Assembly: GCF_002775205.1 (NCBI RefSeq)
Contig: NC_036456.1
Coordinates: 12,551,463-12,615,462 of the forward strand
Length of the DNA: 64,000 nt
Reading direction: 5' to 3'
From: Xiphophorus maculatus
Taxonomy: Eukaryota; Chordata; Actinopteri; Cyprinodontiformes; Poeciliidae
Under the pieces are notes generated by a model. The model had not been told where the DNA came from, ran no database searches, and worked only from the letters and a program-made list of their open reading frames with translations. The position numbers and the translations under genes were made by a program. Below, piece after piece: positions 8,286-22,744 of the stretch. The stretch's first letter is position 1; each line of letters begins with the position of its first letter.

Positions 8286-8960
8286 TTAGAATTTCCTGTT
8301 GAACAAGTGCGGTCCAAACACCACGCCGACCACGCAGGTGATCACAAAGAGCACCCAGAATATGACGGCCAGCAGCTGCACGCACAGCAGGGTCCTCCGG
8401 CTCTGCTGTATGACCCCCTCCTCGCCCACCAGGTCCGCGGCCGCTCCGTACGGCCTGTCCGGGTGCATCTGCTGCACCTGCAGGCTGACGGTGGGCAGGA
8501 CGATGAAGCGGCTGTCCCTGCCGCCTCCGCTGCTGCTGTTGGCGCCCTCCAGAGAGAGCACCACTCTCTGGGTGACCGTCGCCACGCGTGTGGAAACTGT
8601 CGCCGGCATCCGGAAGGCCGTCACGCGGGGCAGCCTGCACATGATTTGGGAGTTGCAGGGTAAAGCGAGGGCGTTCCCAGTGCGCAGAGGGGTTAAATGG
8701 CGGCAGAGGGGACAGGGAATGGCTTGTGGGCCGCCGCGGGGGTCAGCGGGGTCACAGGGGTTGAACTGGATCCTCTGCAGGCACTCTGTGCAGAAGACAT
8801 GGAGGCACTCCAACATCCGGGGGCTTTTGTTATACTGGTTGTACTCCTGGTAGCAAATGGGACACTCTAAATCTACAGCCTCCCCAGGGGTGGTGCTGGG
8901 GCAGGGGGCTGCACTAACTGGTTCCCCCTGCTGGGACCCTGGAACAACGTCCTCTGGCAT
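8286..8960 (-). CDS. Membrane-anchored C3HC4 RING finger protein (RNF222/RNF223-type)
   Basis: A 224-residue probable E3 ubiquitin ligase. The RING is complete: C33-x2-C36-x15-C52-x-H54-x2-C57-x2-C60-x22-C83-x2-C86, in context LECPICYQEY ... CPLCRHLTP. A single hydrophobic helix spans about 190-216 (LLCVQLLAVIFWVLFVITCV), leaving a tail of about eight residues, so the RING should face the cytosol. This layout (N-terminal RING, C-terminal anchor, about 200-250 residues) is that of RNF152/182/183/186/222/223/225. RNF222 fits best by the RESQIFV-like stretch before the helix (here RDSRFIVLPT) and by neighbours on human 17p13.1; RNF223 is the alternative. Start: the only in-frame ATG before the RING is at 8960. 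The frame stays open upstream to a splice acceptor at 9036-9035, so a 5' exon probably exists to the right. Confidence 0.9.
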   Translation of the reverse strand: MPEDVVPGSQQGEPVSAAPCPSTTPGEAVDLECPICYQEYNQYNKSPRMLECLHVFCTECLQRIQFNPCDPADPRGGPQAIPCPLCRHLTPLRTGNALALPCNSQIMCRLPRVTAFRMPATVSTRVATVTQRVVLSLEGANSSSGGGRDSRFIVLPTVSLQVQQMHPDRPYGAAADLVGEEGVIQQSRRTLLCVQLLAVIFWVLFVITCVVGVVFGPHLFNRKF

Positions 8961-9034
8961 GCCTGGAGGACGGATGGACACAGCTGAACTCTGAGGAAAG
9001 GTTTGACTGAATCTTTTCCAAAAACTGGGAAAAT
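8961..9034 (-). other. Probable 5' UTR start of the RING coding exon, with splice acceptor
   Basis: On the minus strand the sequence TTTTCTCATTACAG (AG at plus 9036-9035) is a good polypyrimidine/acceptor signal. It places the exon start at 9034, 74 bases before the ATG. The frame is open throughout, so an upstream exon could add N-terminal residues. I could not identify that exon. Confidence 0.5.
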
Positions 9035-9193
9035 CTGTAATGAGAAAAGTAGTTATAAGTGTTCCAGGAAATTATAGCTGGAAGTGTCCCAGCATTTGCT
9101 CCCCATGAAGGACTTCTTTGTTTATACAACTTAAATCAACAGATTTGCATCATGAGTCACAGCATTCCCCTTCTTAGCCCCTCCACATGCTGG

Positions 9194-13312: not shown

Positions 13313-14400
13313 CACGTGTGTTAAACTCAAGGCCTGGGGGCCAAATCTGGCCCACCACAGCTTTTTATGTTTCCCTCTAGACTCCAAGTTACATCAATAA
13401 GTCCCTGCAGTTTTTCACAAATCCACAAAATTCACACAAAATCAACAGATCCCCACACTTTTTCTGATTTTACTGACATTTTTAATCAAAATTGGCCTAA
13501 AACACTGGGTTTAAGCGACTGCCCCCTCAGTCTTACTTGATGTCAAGTTATAGTCTGGGATCAATACAGTGATTAATAAAATGTCACATTTAACATCACA
13601 CATTGGCAAAAATGTCGTAAAAATTCCTTACAAATCATTTTAAATTAGCGCCACAAAATTTGCGATTTTGACTGCAAAGACCCACAAAAACAATCACAAA
13701 GTCCTGGATGGACTGATCAGTGTGAAAAGATGTTCAATATTATTTCATTTTAACAGACACTTACTGAATGCAATAAGCTATGCATTGATAATTTATTAAT
13801 TTTATTGGCTTTATCAATACGTGAGGAGAGTGGTGCGGACAGCAGAGAGGATCATCGGGGCCCCCCTTCCCTCCATTCAGGACATTTCATCCCAGCGCTG
13901 CGTGTCCCGAGGCCGAAACATCATCAGTGACCCCTCACGTCCCCACCATGGACTGTTCTCCCTGCTGCCCTCTGGAAAGAGGTTCCGCAGCGTCCGGTGC
14001 AGGTCCACCAGGTTCCGAAACAGCTTTTTCCCACTTGCCATCAGACTGCTGAACTCTTAATTGGACTGCACTCAAAAACTGGTCTCCACTTCATACCTTG
14101 CACATATACATAGCTAAGTAACTTCCATTTTACTGTCAGTCCTGCACTTTATAATTTATATTCATATTTTATACTGTATTTTATTTTATTCTGGAGTAAC
14201 CTCACAACATTGGAACTTCAAAACATTGTTCTGAGCCGTATGCAACGAAATTTGGTTCTGTATACACCCTGTGCATGCAAAATGACAATAAAGTCAGTCT
14301 AAGTCTAAGTCTAAGTCTAATACATTCTGCCACAACCGGCCCTTTAAAAACATTGAGATTTTTGATATGGCCCAAAATGAAAATGAGTCTGACACCACTG
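13313..14400. mobile_element. hAT-type element interrupted by a LINE
   Basis: The left end CACGTGTGTTAAACTCAAGG and the reverse complement of the right end, CAGTGGTGTCAGACTC, form imperfect terminal inverted repeats of the fish hAT class (CAGGGGTGTCAAACTC). Just inside are the usual GGGGGCCAAATCTGGCCC and CAACCGGCCCTTT texts. The flanks GTGTAGGC (13305-13312) and GTCTAGGT (14401-14408) agree at 6 of 8 positions, consistent with an old 8-bp target duplication. A LINE 3' end is inserted at about 13821-14320. Confidence 0.8.
13821..14320 (+). mobile_element. 5'-truncated L2/CR1-like LINE 3' end
   Basis: An open frame at 13821-14060 encodes the extreme C-terminus of a non-LTR reverse-transcriptase ORF: RVVRTAERIIGAPLPSIQDI ... 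ISDPSRPHHGLFSLLPSGKR ... NSFFPLAIRLLNS. A 3' UTR follows, ending in a tandem AAGTCT array at about 14291-14320, the microsatellite-like tail of this LINE group. AATAC flanks both sides (13816-13820 and 14319-14323), a possible short target duplication. It sits inside a hAT-type element and is therefore the younger insertion. Confidence 0.85.
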
Positions 14401-15059: not shown

Positions 15060-15400
15060 CAGAAAATACATCTAAAAAAAGCCCAGAACTACACCTAAAA
15101 CAAGCCCCAACAAGTTCAACAAGACGATTAGAGAACACAATCATGGAAAAACCGGAACAGGTTTGGCTGGTTTAAAAAGGTCATCACCACACGGTCGGGG
15201 TTTTCTTCTGAAAGCACCTTCAGTTCCACCTGAGCCACCTAGAAAACATGTTTTGGCCATTACCCAAAGATCCTTATTAGGCGAAAACAAACAACATATA
15301 AGGATAAGCAAGCCTATATCTGCTGTCAAGCACGGCAGTGGAGGTATAATGATTTGGATTGTTTTGAAGCCACAGAACATTGAACTGACTATGTGCTAGC
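15060..15400 (+). pseudogene. Tc1/mariner-like transposase remnant
   Basis: The frame at 15322-15357 reads AVKHGSGGIMIW, the hallmark block before the second catalytic Asp of Tc1-like transposases. Upstream text (15163-15300) stays open but is divergent. The frame ends shortly after the signature, so this is a fragment. Similar low-quality sequence may extend left to about 14870. Confidence 0.65.
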
Positions 15401-16687
15401 TAGCCTATCCTAAGATAGTTGGAAGGTGTATTACCTCTGCAGTATAACTTTGTTTTAGTTATATAGTATTAAATATAGTGCCTTGCATCATGTTTAATAT
15501 TTAAAAGACCAGATTACTTTTAATTTATTTATTTTTTCCATGGACTTTAAGTACTGTTTTGGAAGACATGGCTAATCTGTCACATTAGCTAAACATATTT
15601 TACATGTGTTTTATAGTGACTCATAAGAAGCCTATTTTTTCATTACATAGTCTTTTGCTGCTTGGTTGGCGTTATTACATAACCGACTCTAGACGGAGAA
15701 AAATGGGTGGAAAAGGTTTTTATCAAAGAGTGTAAGATGATTGTTTAAGCTGAACATTAAGCTGATATCAGAGTACCTCAGCGAACTCAGATCTGAAACT
15801 TGTTTTGAAGAAGTTTGAAAAGCTGGTGAAAAACATGCTGTTCAGTTTGGCTATAAAAGAGACAGAGCGGTAAGTTTGCAGCAGGGCCATCTTTAACATG
15901 GTTTTTAGAGGCAGCAAATCACCTTATTTCTTTATTAATTAAATTTATTTAGATTTTTAATTATATTATTGACTTGTTTTCACACATAAGATTAACATTT
16001 TTATCATTACTTACTATGCAATCGCTGAAGATGTGGATGAATGTTTTTCTATTGTCTCTGTTTCATTCTCTGGAGTTCAGCGGGGTCATGGTCTTGTCCC
16101 TCTTGTTTTATTGTTTTCTTAAACACTAACGATCAGCAAAGTCACCAGGGTCACCACATCATGAAATCTGCTGACGGTGGGTAAAGTCTGTCAGATGGTG
16201 TGAATCATTGTTTGTTTAACATTTAGGTTGCAAAAACTGGAATATTGCTGATTTTAGTAGGAACTCATATGTCATCCAGCCGTTCAGCAGGAAAACACCT
16301 TGGAACAGTAACTGTGTAAAAAGTCGCACTATGACTTTATCACAAGTTTTACAGTTTTAATATTGACATAACCTTTAATGTTTTATTTTTGCATTATTGA
16401 CTATGTTCTTATTATTCAACCTGCTGAGAAAGACACTTATTGTTAAAAAAAAAAAAAAGTAGCAACACAGCAGGACTTCCCACTTACTCGATAACTCTTT
16501 TCCCAAAAGTTTTGGGTTTGTTTCTTTTTGCTTTTTATTGTTTCTCAGCTTGCACCAGACATGACCTAACAGACTTACGGTAAGTTCAGCTCTGAAAGAA
16601 AGAGCTGGAAGGCATTAAAAAAAAAAAGCTCTAAACAAAAGATCTGAAAAACATTGTTAGATCTGCACACTGAGACATTCACAGAGG

Positions 16688-16688
<1 letters not shown>

Positions 16689-16753
<65 letters not shown>

Positions 16754-16768
16754 CACACACCCACACAC
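16689..16768. repeat. (CA)n microsatellite with CT interruptions
   Basis: About 80 bp of CA dinucleotides broken by two CCTA interruptions (near 16719 and 16751). It abuts the 3' side of the candidate minus-strand reading frame at 16751-16981. Confidence 0.95.
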
Positions 16769-16981
16769 AGTGCTTTTAGTTTGTGATTTTTGGCCTAGAT
16801 CCCAGCGGATATCACCATGAAAGGAGTTCATTCTCATGGTGGAAACACTGGTAGGAGGCGCGATGGCAGGAGGTTTCTGTCTGACGTATTTCTGGAGTAA
16901 ATCTCCCTCCACGGGGTCAGGAGAGAGGACGGACATGTAGGGCAAATCTCGAGAAAGGATATTACTATAATTGGACATCAT
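16751..16981 (-). CDS. Candidate small protein or exon, unrecognised
   Basis: ATG at 16981 opens 76 codons beginning MMSNYSNILSRDLPYMSVLS, then PDPVEGDLLQKYVRQKPPAI, then APPTSVSTMRMNSFHGDIRW. It reads like ordinary protein (mixed residues, no low complexity) until it runs into the CA microsatellite, where the last eight or so residues are an artefact. There is no acceptor in frame just upstream and no strong donor before the repeat, so it may be a decayed exon, a lineage-specific small gene, or chance. I do not recognise a family. Confidence 0.3.
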
Positions 16982-17528: not shown

Positions 17529-18032
17529 ATGATCTCAGAGATTGAGTGCGGAGTTTGTTACCGGACCTACAACGCGGCTCGCCGCTGTCCACGGGAGCTC
17601 CACTGTAAGCACACCTTCTGCGAGAGCTGCCTCCGGGCTTTGAGCCGCCCGCTGCTGCCGGGGGCGGACCGGTCAGTAGATTGCCCGCTATGCAGACACA
17701 GCACCCCGCTGACCGCAGAGGGGAACATCAGGACCGAGCTGAGGGTGGATGAGTCCGCCCTGGAGCGGCTGATGACCGCGGGGGTCCTAGACCGGGAGGA
17801 GGACCCGGACGACGAGGAGGAGGAGGACAGGGAGGAGGGCGGAGAAGCTCCAGAGTGTGAGAGGGAAGTCCCAGAGGCTGAAGCCGAGGAAAGTGACTCC
17901 TCTGCGGGGCTCAGAGGTGGGAGGCTCCGGCGGTCCTGGACCAAAGTTTGGAGGAAGATAAGCGGCAAGAGCTCTCAACAGAGACCAAATGGTAAACAGA
18001 CGATTATTTATTGGTTGTTCGTAGAATTATAA

Positions 18033-18130
<98 letters not shown>

Positions 18131-18393
18131 TACACAATTATACAGTTGTTTAAATAGCTCTTCTATTTGTTAACATTTCAATTGTAATCATTAGGGGTTT
18201 TAATTCATGTTGGAATGTTAAAAAATGGTAAATTTGGACTAACTCCAAATCAAGTCCAGTTTTTCTAACAAGCTACTTTAGTCTTCTGACGCTTCATTCC
18301 TGACCTTGTCTTTTGTCTTTTGTCTGTTTTACAGATTGTATGACCACTGATGACCTGAGGAACATGGCCATGATGTCCTGCCACATGTTCTGA
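17529..18393 (+). CDS. rnf227: Soluble C3HC4 RING finger protein, RNF227-like (2 exons)
   Basis: A probable E3 ubiquitin ligase of 173 residues, joined from 17529-17991 and 18335-18393. The intron is GT-AG (GT at 17992, AG at 18333-18334 after a pyrimidine run), phase 1. The RING is C7-x2-C10-x15-C26-x-H28-x2-C31-x2-C34-x17-C52-x2-C55, in context IECGVCYRTYN ... DCPLCRHSTP. An acidic stretch follows (about 90-125, including DDEEEEDREE), then a basic RSWTKVWRKI segment and the tail CMTTDDLRNMAMMSCHMF from exon 2. There is no membrane helix. The short RING-first layout and the C-terminal D-L..M..C pattern recall human RNF227, which I place from memory near DVL2 on 17p13.1. RNF224/RNF208 relatives are alternatives. 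If the intron were retained, the frame would end at 18032 with a different short tail. Confidence 0.9.
17992..18334 (+). other. Intron of the RNF227-like gene
   Basis: 343 bp, beginning GTAAACAG and ending TGTTTTACAG. More than a quarter of it is an (ATT)n array (18033-18129), starting only about 40 bp from the donor. Confidence 0.85.
18033..18129. repeat. (ATT)n microsatellite in intron
   Basis: An uninterrupted trinucleotide array of about 97 bp inside the RNF227-like intron. Confidence 0.97.
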
Positions 18394-18884: not shown

Positions 18885-18972
18885 CAGACTCCAATGCCGC
18901 GTGTTCAGTAGGTGGCGGTATGCACCTTAAAGTTGCTTGCAATCCGCCATAATAGAAAAGAAGAAGAAGACT
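18885..18972 (+). repeat. Dispersed repeat fragment with (AAG)n tail and CTCF-like core
   Basis: The text TCAGTAGGTGGCGGTATGCA ... TGCAATCCGCC followed by AAGAAGAAGAAGA is a recurring short repeat in fish genomes, of unclear class. It contains TCAGTAGGTGGCGG (18905-18918), which fits the CTCF core except for its first base. It lies directly upstream of the first exon of the large unknown gene. Confidence 0.55.
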
Positions 18973-18974
18973 CC

Positions 18975-19010
18975 AATGCAGTTCACCTGCAATGCCAGGT
19001 GAACGGCATT
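18975..19010. repeat. 15-bp hairpin with one mismatch, 6-nt loop
   Basis: AATGC-A-GTTCACCTG (18975-18989), loop CAATGC, then CAGGTGAAC-G-GCATT (18996-19010). The arms contain an E-box (CACCTG). It sits 33 bp before the probable start codon of the unknown gene, hence in its 5' UTR or core promoter. Confidence 0.85.
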
Positions 19011-19042: not shown

Positions 19043-22000
19043 ATGACAGCAGAGACGCATGAAAACACGACTGCTGCTATTTTTACGCCTTTCTTTAGAG
19101 AATCATACAAACCTTGGCGGAAGCTGTCAGTCATGTCTGGCAACTTTGTTCTCTTCTCAAGGTAAATGGCTGGTTTTAATGTTTCTTCAAGTTCCATTCA
19201 CAGGATTTTAAACTAGTGGTAATCCTGAATGGCAACAAAGCAGTTCTTGAGAAAGAACAGGGAGCCTCAAGGTGTGTTTTTCTCCCTGCAGACTCTTTGT
19301 GGGGATCTGTGCTGCTGTCATACTGATTGTCATGTGTTCACACGCTGCAGGAGGTGAGCATCTGCTTCCAATGTACCAATGCTAAACCGTAGCTTCAGCG
19401 GTGTTCTGGTGTGTGGAAAATGAAACTGATTTCTAAGTTTTTGTTAGAAGTGTACATAATTTTCCTTTTAAGATGAATGAATTTATTTTTTCAAATGGGT
19501 TTTAAACTTTTAAAACAAGCCTAATCTCAAGGCCCTTTGCAAGATGTGCAGGTCTGATTAACTCTGTTGAGTCCAAATTCAGTTCATCTCAGTTCAGTCA
19601 TGAAGTCAAATTCAAATCTAGTTTTGTTCAGTCCAGTTCCATCTAATCTAAAATATTGGACCACCCATCATGGTAAAGTTGTTTTGCTTAATCTAAATTA
19701 GCTGGGTTACTGAAACAGACCCCACTTTTACACAAAATCCACACACAAGTTCAACAATGCTGAGGTTGGGAATATTCCTGAAATGTGAGGTAGCCTACAT
19801 TATCTATCCGCAAACCAGTTTTAGTGGTTGTTGAGGATCGTTGTCCTGTCCAGCATTAGCAGGGATGAATTTATGGACTTTAAGTCATTTTTAATAAGAG
19901 AAAAATCATCAAAAATGTCGAAGTTGTGTGTTTTTTTTATTGTTGACATTGAAGTTGAATGTTTTATTAACTGGATGAAGAATGGGTCAACTTAATTACT
20001 ACAAGGCCAAAAAGAATGAGTCATTCTGATGAATGTATGTAAACGTCTGACCAGAACTTTATCACCAGTTTAATCATCCAACATTTAATAAAAGCATACA
20101 TTTGTTGTATTTTTTTTTCCAGCCAGTCCAGCAGTACCTATAATCCAAAAGACGGTGAAGTACAGGATCCTGAGACGACTCGGTCCTGAGCAACGGGTTC
20201 CCTTCTTAGCTGGTCAGCTGGGCGAAGAACAAGAAGTCCAAACACCAGCAGACGCCCTGTTGATCAGCAATCATCAGTCCTATCCTGTCCACTTTACTCA
20301 AGGTAGCTTTAGTTACAGTCAGAACAGCCTCGATAAGACGCGGCCTCGAGTGAAAATAATCAAACTACAGAGAGGTGGAATGATGAGGCCAGGAAGCAGC
20401 ATTTTCACCACTCATTCCCCGTACAAAGAACCAGGGTTTGATGAATCCAGAATGCCTGACGACAGTCTTCCTCAGAAAGATGAAAACACTGAAAATACAT
20501 ACAACTCTAACATTAACTGGATTAAACATCCAAAGAAATCTGGCAGCGAAGGAGGAATCCCAATGACTCCCCTATCAAAGGTAGATGAAGACAAGTCTGC
20601 AAGAAAGTTGAATTCTGTTTTTCCTTCCCAGGCAGGTAGACTTCAGAGTGCTCAACTTCTAACCCAAAGGGGGCTTGGCAGTGACCTTTTGGAAACAAAT
20701 CTGCTTCCCACGGTCAGAGTCCAGAGCGGTGCCGGTAGGATGCAACTAAAAAACTTCTTTGACTTTACAGATCAGTTTTGGGGTGGTGCTCAATCTCTCA
20801 GCAACAGTTTAAGCGTTATTAAACGAAACCCAAGCCAAGAAAAGCCAACATCCATCTCAAAATTCCCACAGAACCAAAACTCTGTAAGCAGTAAAGAAAT
20901 TCTGGAACACAATAACATCCAGTCGTATCTCTTTAAAGAATCTCCAGCTCAGATTTACACCGTGAAGAATGTTGGGCAAAAAGCTTTTAGAGGACAGAGA
21001 AATACTGCTAATTGGGCCCCGAAACAAAGCCTTTCTGGGACACAAGAGAAAAGTAGATTTATTTCTAATCTCAATCATTTTACCAGAACAGACCCAAAGA
21101 AGGAGGAATCTGGAGCCCAAATTGGTTTTGGTAGACGTCAGGTCATTTTCTATCCCACTCCACACAAGGCTGCTGCCCCTACACCAGGTTTCCTGCATCC
21201 TGTTTCAGAGAACAAGAATCGGCAAAATCTTGTCTCTGCAGTTCATTCTCAAGATAGCAGAAAGGCATTTGGTGTACTGCAAGACCGAGTCAACGTGACT
21301 TCAAAAGAGTTGAGACTGGAGTGCACAGCAGGTCAGTCTGTTGAAAGATTTCATCGCCTCGATGGGCTCACCAACCCTGAGAGGAAACCTGAGGAGACGT
21401 CTGGTCCGTCCTCTGCAGAGAGAACACAGTGCACCCTGGATAAAGGAGTAGACACTGGGTTTAAATTTTCAAATGCTTATCCTTTATCACAAAAGTACAG
21501 CTTTGGCCAGAGAAGACCTGCTGCTACAACTACCACACCAGCTAAACTGGGCATGGTAAAAATGAGTCCACCTTCTCCTGTAACCCAAGTCAGCAGTACA
21601 ACCACTGTTCAACCCTTCACGTCAATGCTCAAAAGTCAGCAGCCTGAAACTGGGGCAAGCATGAACAGAAATGAGAACAGATTCAGGCCCTACAAGGGAA
21701 GGTTTGGTCTAGAAGGATATGGCAGCCAACCACTTGAGGGAGCCAAAGCTTTACCTCAGAGCACAGACTCACCCGTCAAACCCAAACCAAGTTTCAAAGC
21801 GTTTGAACTCAGGAGCTCTGAGGTCTCCAGACCCAAACCCATCATGATTTACAGATTGTACAATCAAAGAGACGACAAGGAGCCAGGTAGCAGTGGTGAC
21901 TTTAAAATGCCTCCAGAAATTGTAAGAGCAGATGGCTCAATCTCAAGATTTACATCCAACAAGGCCCACATTCTTCAGAGGTTTCTGCCCAGTAAAAACC

Positions 22001-22698
22001 GAACTGTAGGCACTCGCAGCAGAACCAGCTGGAAATTTCCAGCATGGATTTCTCCAATAGTCTCTTCATCTCTTCATCTGAGCTCACTAGAGCAGTCCAC
22101 AGACGAACTGAAACCGAAAGCAGCTGACGGAAACAATCCTGCTGCAGAGGAGGTGCCTAAGTTCAGGACCCTCACCAGCCGCACAGTGAGGGGCAAACGG
22201 GTGAAGCTGACCCAAACTGGCAGTAGAAGGTTCCTCAGACCCATCGCCATCAATTCAACGGGCAACTCGGTCATACGCAGGCTGCCCAGGGTGAAAGCCG
22301 TCACGTACGAGGACGTCCTGGGAAGTGCTTCGTTCAGCAGTGTGAGGTCTCCGGGTCGTCATCAGGATCGTTTCCCAAACGTGACGACTGTTCGGGGAGA
22401 AGGCTGGAGCTCAAAATCAGATGATGTCAAGAACATGAGCAGAAGTCCTAAAGCAAACGTCACCAACGAGGAGACGGCGAGTGTTTATAGGAAGGAAGAA
22501 GCAGACAATGAAGTAGAAACGTCAGATTTGTTTTTCGAGAGTGAAGGAAGTGGAAATTTGGATTTGTCCGACGTTTTATCAACCGCCTCAGAGAACGGGC
22601 CAGCAGGAAATGATCTGCTGGAGCTCGACTACCTCCGAAAATCCACTGGCAACGTCTCCTTCAAATCGCTGAGTAAATCACATCTGGAGCAGCAATAG
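19043..22698 (+). CDS. Large unknown secreted or type II membrane protein (3 exons, ~918 aa)
   Basis: Joined from 19043-19161, 19292-19353 and 20123-22698; all splice sites are GT-AG and the frame is continuous (phases 2 and 1). The first ATG (19043, A at -3) gives 918 residues. An in-frame ATG at 19133 gives 888 and a conventional signal peptide. A hydrophobic run LFVGICAAVILIVMC (41-55) follows a basic segment and precedes SHAAGASPAVP, a plausible cleavage site. The rest is rich in S, K, R, P, Q and T, basic until the acidic last 100 residues, with no recognisable fold. After the signal there are only two cysteines (461, 497). Seven N-glycosylation sequons occur at 451, 686, 771, 813, 831, 839 and 903. 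A furin-type RGKR lies at 750-753. FFESEGSGNLDLSD (Ser870) resembles a glycosaminoglycan attachment site. Exon 3 alone encodes 93 percent of the protein. Coding potential is clear; function is unknown. Confidence 0.85.
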
Positions 22699-22738: not shown

Positions 22739-22744
22739 AATAAA
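22739..22744 (+). terminator. Poly(A) signal of the large unknown gene
   Basis: AATAAA lies 41 bp after the stop codon, implying a very short 3' UTR. This compact ending supports a functional transcript rather than a chance frame. Confidence 0.75.

Follow-up and report, generated by a model that had tools for sequence, protein, structure and literature searches.

A gene of Xiphophorus maculatus predicted to encode an exported, largely disordered protein, possibly a chondroitin-sulfate core protein

Secreted disordered proteins that await characterisation are common and usually of an ordinary kind. Three described systems lie closest to the gene presented here. Members of the SCPP/SIBLING group are secreted, disordered and cysteine-poor, some with much of their coding sequence in one large exon; their coding introns are all phase 0 and their genes are linked to the SPARC/SPARCL1 cluster. 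The SPEM genes, found at mammalian 17p13.1, encode an N-terminal hydrophobic segment followed by a long low-complexity tail. Cholecystokinin and secretogranin-1 are secreted proteins, and one report names both as chondroitin sulfate core proteins that lack functional domains (PMC10424144). Published glycosaminoglycan (GAG) sites consist of Ser-Gly preceded by acidic residues, within disordered or low-complexity regions (PMC10424144, PMC8418075).

The gene lies on the forward strand of a 64,000-nucleotide stretch of the Xiphophorus maculatus genome (hereafter the window) and comprises three exons. Exon 1 (19043..19161) is coding from the ATG at 19043 or, likelier, from that at 19133, and ends in phase 2 at its donor; exon 2 (19292..19353, phase 1 at its donor) holds most of the hydrophobic signal segment; exon 3 (20123..22698) contributes 857 whole codons plus TAG and encodes essentially the entire mature chain. 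Joined in frame, the three exons give 918 codons, or 888 counted from ATG 19133, with exon 3 (2576 bp including the stop) supplying 857 of the 918 residues (93%). Our analysis thus reproduced the exon coordinates, the intron phases (2, then 1), the 918-residue product and the share of exon 3 given in a preliminary description of this DNA, and also confirmed its poly(A) signal shortly 3' of the stop, an AATAAA at 22739-22744 (forward strand) that lies 40-41 bp past the TAG.

Searches of the mature chain bear out the earlier statement that it has no recognisable domain. Pfam gave no family for the chain as a whole at E values up to 5, and PDB gave no chain for the full-length protein (E up to 1) or for its C-terminal 180 residues (E up to 10). 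When nine overlapping pieces were run against Pfam, three returned one weak match each (Sde182, E 0.021, the best; FAM47, 0.12; Exo5, 0.15), and these domain readings were rejected, all three falling under their curated cutoffs; leucine-rich repeats and other matrix domains were likewise not found by Pfam, in the whole chain or in the nine pieces with their three sub-cutoff matches. The mature chain is likely to be largely disordered. Set against the charge-hydropathy boundary, its composition falls to the disordered side (0.412 vs 0.429), and a single-sequence fold prediction returned a mean pLDDT of 33, with 849 of 857 residues below 50, values that fit disorder yet may merely reflect the absence of an alignment, as one sequence was used. 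Only two cysteines occur outside the signal segment, at residues 431 and 467 of 888, confirming the number previously given. Charge is distributed unevenly: the body up to the RGKR motif (residues 31-723) is strongly basic (pI 10.06, net charge +38), and the fragment after it (residues 724-888) is near neutral overall (pI 6.2, net charge -1). Within that fragment a basic stretch of 67 residues (pI 11.8) precedes an acidic C-terminal tail of 98 (22402..22695, forward strand; pI 4.44).

Short motifs in this chain differ in how far they rise above chance. The preliminary description proposed cleavage at the furin-type RGKR (22189..22200, forward strand) into a basic body and a glycosylated acidic tail. 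The RX[KR]R pattern has a chance expectation of 0.62 occurrences, and cutting there would release a near-neutral piece; cleavage into basic and acidic halves is therefore unsupported and we reject it. For N-glycosylation, the seven sequons counted earlier are present, compared with 8.2 expected after shuffling (P 0.75), and an overall excess is therefore rejected. Five of the seven, rather than the six reported, fall in the last quarter whichever of three numberings is used (nominal binomial P 0.013), and the 165 residues after RGKR hold five where 2.3 are expected (P 0.054). This clustering remains a weak positive and lends weak support to glycosylation of the C-terminal part; an acidic and possibly glycosylated C-terminus is supported.

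The candidate chondroitin-sulfate attachment site, ESEGSG (22537..22554, forward strand; serine at 22549-22551), lies within the acidic tail, has glutamate at -4 and -2 of the serine and carries the preferred GSG. A GSG preceded by two or more acidic residues between -5 and -1 occurs once, against 0.022 expected (P 0.022). An SG preceded by two or more acidic residues occurs three times, against 0.54 expected (P 0.017), and [DE]GSG once, against 0.044 expected (P 0.043); the loosest form, any acidic residue shortly before SG, gave five where 2.2 are expected (P 0.09) and was not significant. These P values are nominal, since ESEGSG had been picked beforehand by eye. The motif is among those furthest above chance in this protein, and it agrees with the attachment rule of Ser-Gly, nearby acidic residues and a disordered stretch (nominal P 0.02-0.04), in support of its earlier likening to a glycosaminoglycan site.

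The explanation we prefer, and hold to be rather probable leaving the GAG step aside, is an uncharacterised exported, largely disordered, polyanion-binding protein. Exons 1 and 2 would encode the signal peptide and exon 3 the mature chain of about 857 residues, with signal peptidase removing the N-terminus near AGA|SPAV. The basic body preceding RGKR, with its pI of 10, would bind polyanions of the matrix or of the secretory granule electrostatically. As a further step, tentative and less likely than not, the acidic tail could bear one GAG chain, chondroitin sulfate being possible, on the ESEGSG serine, which would make the product a part-time or full-time proteoglycan core protein. The gene would then possibly encode a chondroitin-sulfate core protein.

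Standing at not far from an even chance is a secreted disordered protein that carries no GAG chain, for instance a prohormone-like precursor or a polypeptide of granule or matrix, with ESEGSG a chance motif. It overlaps with our preferred explanation, whose standing was judged with the GAG step excluded. The sequon total and RX[KR]R both occur at chance counts, and motif hunting in a polar protein of 888 residues must be discounted accordingly; the P values for the GAG site are themselves merely about 0.02-0.04, and 0.09 in the loosest form. Against a chance motif speaks the setting of ESEGSG, with its acidic tail, its glutamates at -4 and -2 and its GSG, which resembles published sites (PMC10424144, PMC8418075).

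We examined the 264 kb around the gene, from which 294 coding-like segments were kept, ten chosen stretches were searched against Pfam and three against PDB. The gene is flanked by ACADVL-DVL2 on one side and by IRS-ACAP1-BCL6B on the other. The ACADVL exons have a PDB match at 3e-31, and the 264 kb also contain DVL-type PDZ and DIX exons, an IRS-type PTB exon, ACAP1 and a BTB exon that is consistent with BCL6B by Pfam. A further exon, for which Pfam gave no match, we take to be monocarboxylate-transporter-like. The neighbourhood is presumably the fish counterpart of human 17p13.1, where we know of no comparable gene. In a study of fish bcl6b, synteny with SLC16A13, ACADVL and DVL2 is described as conserved (PMC9650189), and Acap1, Dvl2 and Acadvl appear in an abbreviation list of a paper on Irs genes, which we take to belong to a gene-neighbourhood figure (PMC5482937). 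Within the window, the stretch from 25000 to 64000, about 39 kb with few and low-scoring coding-like segments, separates the gene from the IRS-type exons, which lie outside the window.

Upstream there are two RING-finger genes, at 8286-9071 (reverse strand) and 17529-18393 (forward strand), both matching Pfam RING families and bearing what we assume to be a likeness to RNF222 and RNF227. Between them, at 15158-16948 (reverse strand), are two weak coding-like segments that, run together, gave no Pfam match. A genome search with the second RING gene returned the first and 12 further places, at 36-47% identity. Two repeats were also observed in this part of the window. The stretch at 13800-14320 (forward strand) ends in AGTCTAAGTCTAAGTCTAA repeats and resembles, by eye, the 3' end of a non-LTR retrotransposon. 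At 18900-18972, immediately before the gene, is a short dispersed repeat of about 70 bp (CAGTAGGTGGCGGTATGCACC..., with GAA units at its end), and all 40 places scored, out of 333 first-look candidates, match it, its own at 100% and the 39 others at 94-99%. Among seven copies compared, the five in the same orientation show a variable left edge and differing flanks; the other two are reversed and were left unturned. A literature search with 19 bases of this repeat yielded no paper.

The gene looks to be single-copy in its own genome, searched as 704.3 Mb in 101 contigs. The whole 888-residue protein (E up to 1) found just two of its own exons, and its last 183 residues (E up to 10) found themselves and one match at E 7.7 that contains a stop. 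The same search tool recovered the RING relatives at 36-47% identity as a positive control, one that is less informative for a disordered protein since RING is compact and conserved. Tblastn (E up to 1) found nothing in the 264-kb neighbourhood with the gene itself masked, nor at 21 loci, of which six lay at RING relatives (each about 3.2 kb), eight carried an arbitrary pattern and seven the dispersed repeat. Scans for relatives picked out one stretch in viral contigs, by a pattern, and 22 in prokaryote genome contigs, of which none was confirmed, neither collection being a fair test for a vertebrate gene. Rfam at gathering thresholds gave nothing in the window, no tRNA was found there, and the literature searched on orphan secreted proteins held no match.

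These searches bear on a second alternative, that the gene is an orthologue of a known vertebrate gene which has diverged past recognition by them. This would be compatible with secretion and overlaps with the explanation we prefer, and we regard it as unlikely, if worth keeping in view. In its favour, ACADVL, DVL2, ACAP1, BCL6B and an IRS gene make up a neighbourhood common to fish and mammals, and disordered proteins diverge fast; against it, the chain found no Pfam family even at the permissive threshold used, its pieces reached no better than sub-cutoff matches, and human 17p13.1 offers no comparable gene known to us. Less probable again is the more ambitious proposal of an undescribed family of secreted chondroitin-sulfate proteoglycans, which fishes would keep in the DVL2-ACAP1 neighbourhood and mammals would have lost or changed beyond recognition.

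The N-terminus decides between export and membrane anchoring. In-frame ATGs occur at 18992, 19043 and 19133, downstream of an in-frame stop at 18953; relative to a start at 19133, ATG 19043 adds 30 residues and ATG 18992 another 17. The start at 19043 given in the preliminary description is thus in frame, but it is preceded by 18992 and so is not the first. ATG 19043 has A at -3 and ATG 19133 has G. An acceptor-like site at 19098|19099 (19098..19099, forward strand; score 9.3) sits between these two ATGs within exon 1 and could open the first coding exon downstream of an untranslated 5' exon; its use would exclude ATGs 19043 and 18992 and leave 19133 as the start. The N-terminal segment reaches a hydropathy maximum of 2.66 over 19 residues and is followed by small residues, A-G-A|S. 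Signal-peptide features are therefore present, namely the hydrophobic segment and small residues at -3 and -1, the A-G-A|S being read by eye and the start uncertain. From ATG 19133 (19133..19135, forward strand), a start suggested by this layout, the 888-residue product begins MSGNFVLFSR and opens with what resembles a signal peptide of about 31 residues that would be cleaved near AGA|SPAV. ATG 19133 is accordingly the likelier start among the three, judged from sequence features, and the product is very probably exported from the cell.

Of the signal or anchor segment originally proposed, the hydrophobic segment with its signal-peptide layout stands, whereas type II anchoring requires an upstream ATG, which we judge the less likely start. 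A type II membrane protein that begins at 19043 or 18992 and keeps the segment uncleaved as its anchor is therefore improbable: both upstream ATGs are in frame, the A at -3 favours 19043 and the hydropathy would suffice to span a membrane, but the segment is laid out from ATG 19133 as a signal peptide with its AGA|S cut, and the acceptor-like site could remove the upstream ATGs altogether.

That 19043..22698 looks like a genuine gene rather than a chance frame follows from several measurements. The other five frames of exon 3 contain 30-52 stops each, and 858 open codons at the composition of this exon have a chance of 1.3e-20, confirming the large exon open for 2576 bp that had been noticed before. 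In exon 3 the period-3 signal reaches 7.0, whereas 76 control windows average 1.15 and peak at 3.2. Scored over every GT and AG of the window with simple matrices, the donors of exon 1 (AAG|GTAAAT) and exon 2 (GAG|GTGAGC) fall within the best 0.91% and 0.18% of 3416 GT, and the acceptors of exons 2 and 3 within the best 0.36% and 0.17% of 4219 AG. Codon G+C bias gives the gene model no support, since GC3 (0.453) is not raised over GC1 (0.497) or GC2 (0.462). A chance open frame or decayed sequence, for which this lack of a G+C rise at third positions would speak, is very improbable in the face of the open-frame chance, the strong periodicity and four good splice sites in compatible phase.

On present evidence the gene is uncharacterised but of an ordinary kind. 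If its GAG site proves real and conserved, an old vertebrate gene neighbourhood would gain a proteoglycan core protein, and we know of no mammalian counterpart to that protein.

Compared with the described systems, the protein shares with SPEM an N-terminal hydrophobic segment with a long low-complexity tail, and the human SPEM members lie in the corresponding chromosome region; unlike them it drew nothing from Pfam at E up to 5, and the Pfam library presumably holds a Spem1 model. With SCPP/SIBLING proteins it has in common secretion, disorder, few cysteines and one large coding exon. Its introns, however, are phase 2 and phase 1, a departure from the all-phase-0 pattern of that group that had already been pointed out and is confirmed here. 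The neighbours recognised in the 264 kb are ACADVL, DVL2, an IRS-type gene and ACAP1. The likeness to cholecystokinin and secretogranin-1, drawn by description, covers secretion, an attachment serine in a disordered stretch and acidic residues mostly N-terminal of that serine, whereas the large basic body sets our protein apart and its attachment site is a predicted candidate. Secretogranin-1 does without an SG or SA site; in the protein described here, the candidate serine is followed by glycine.
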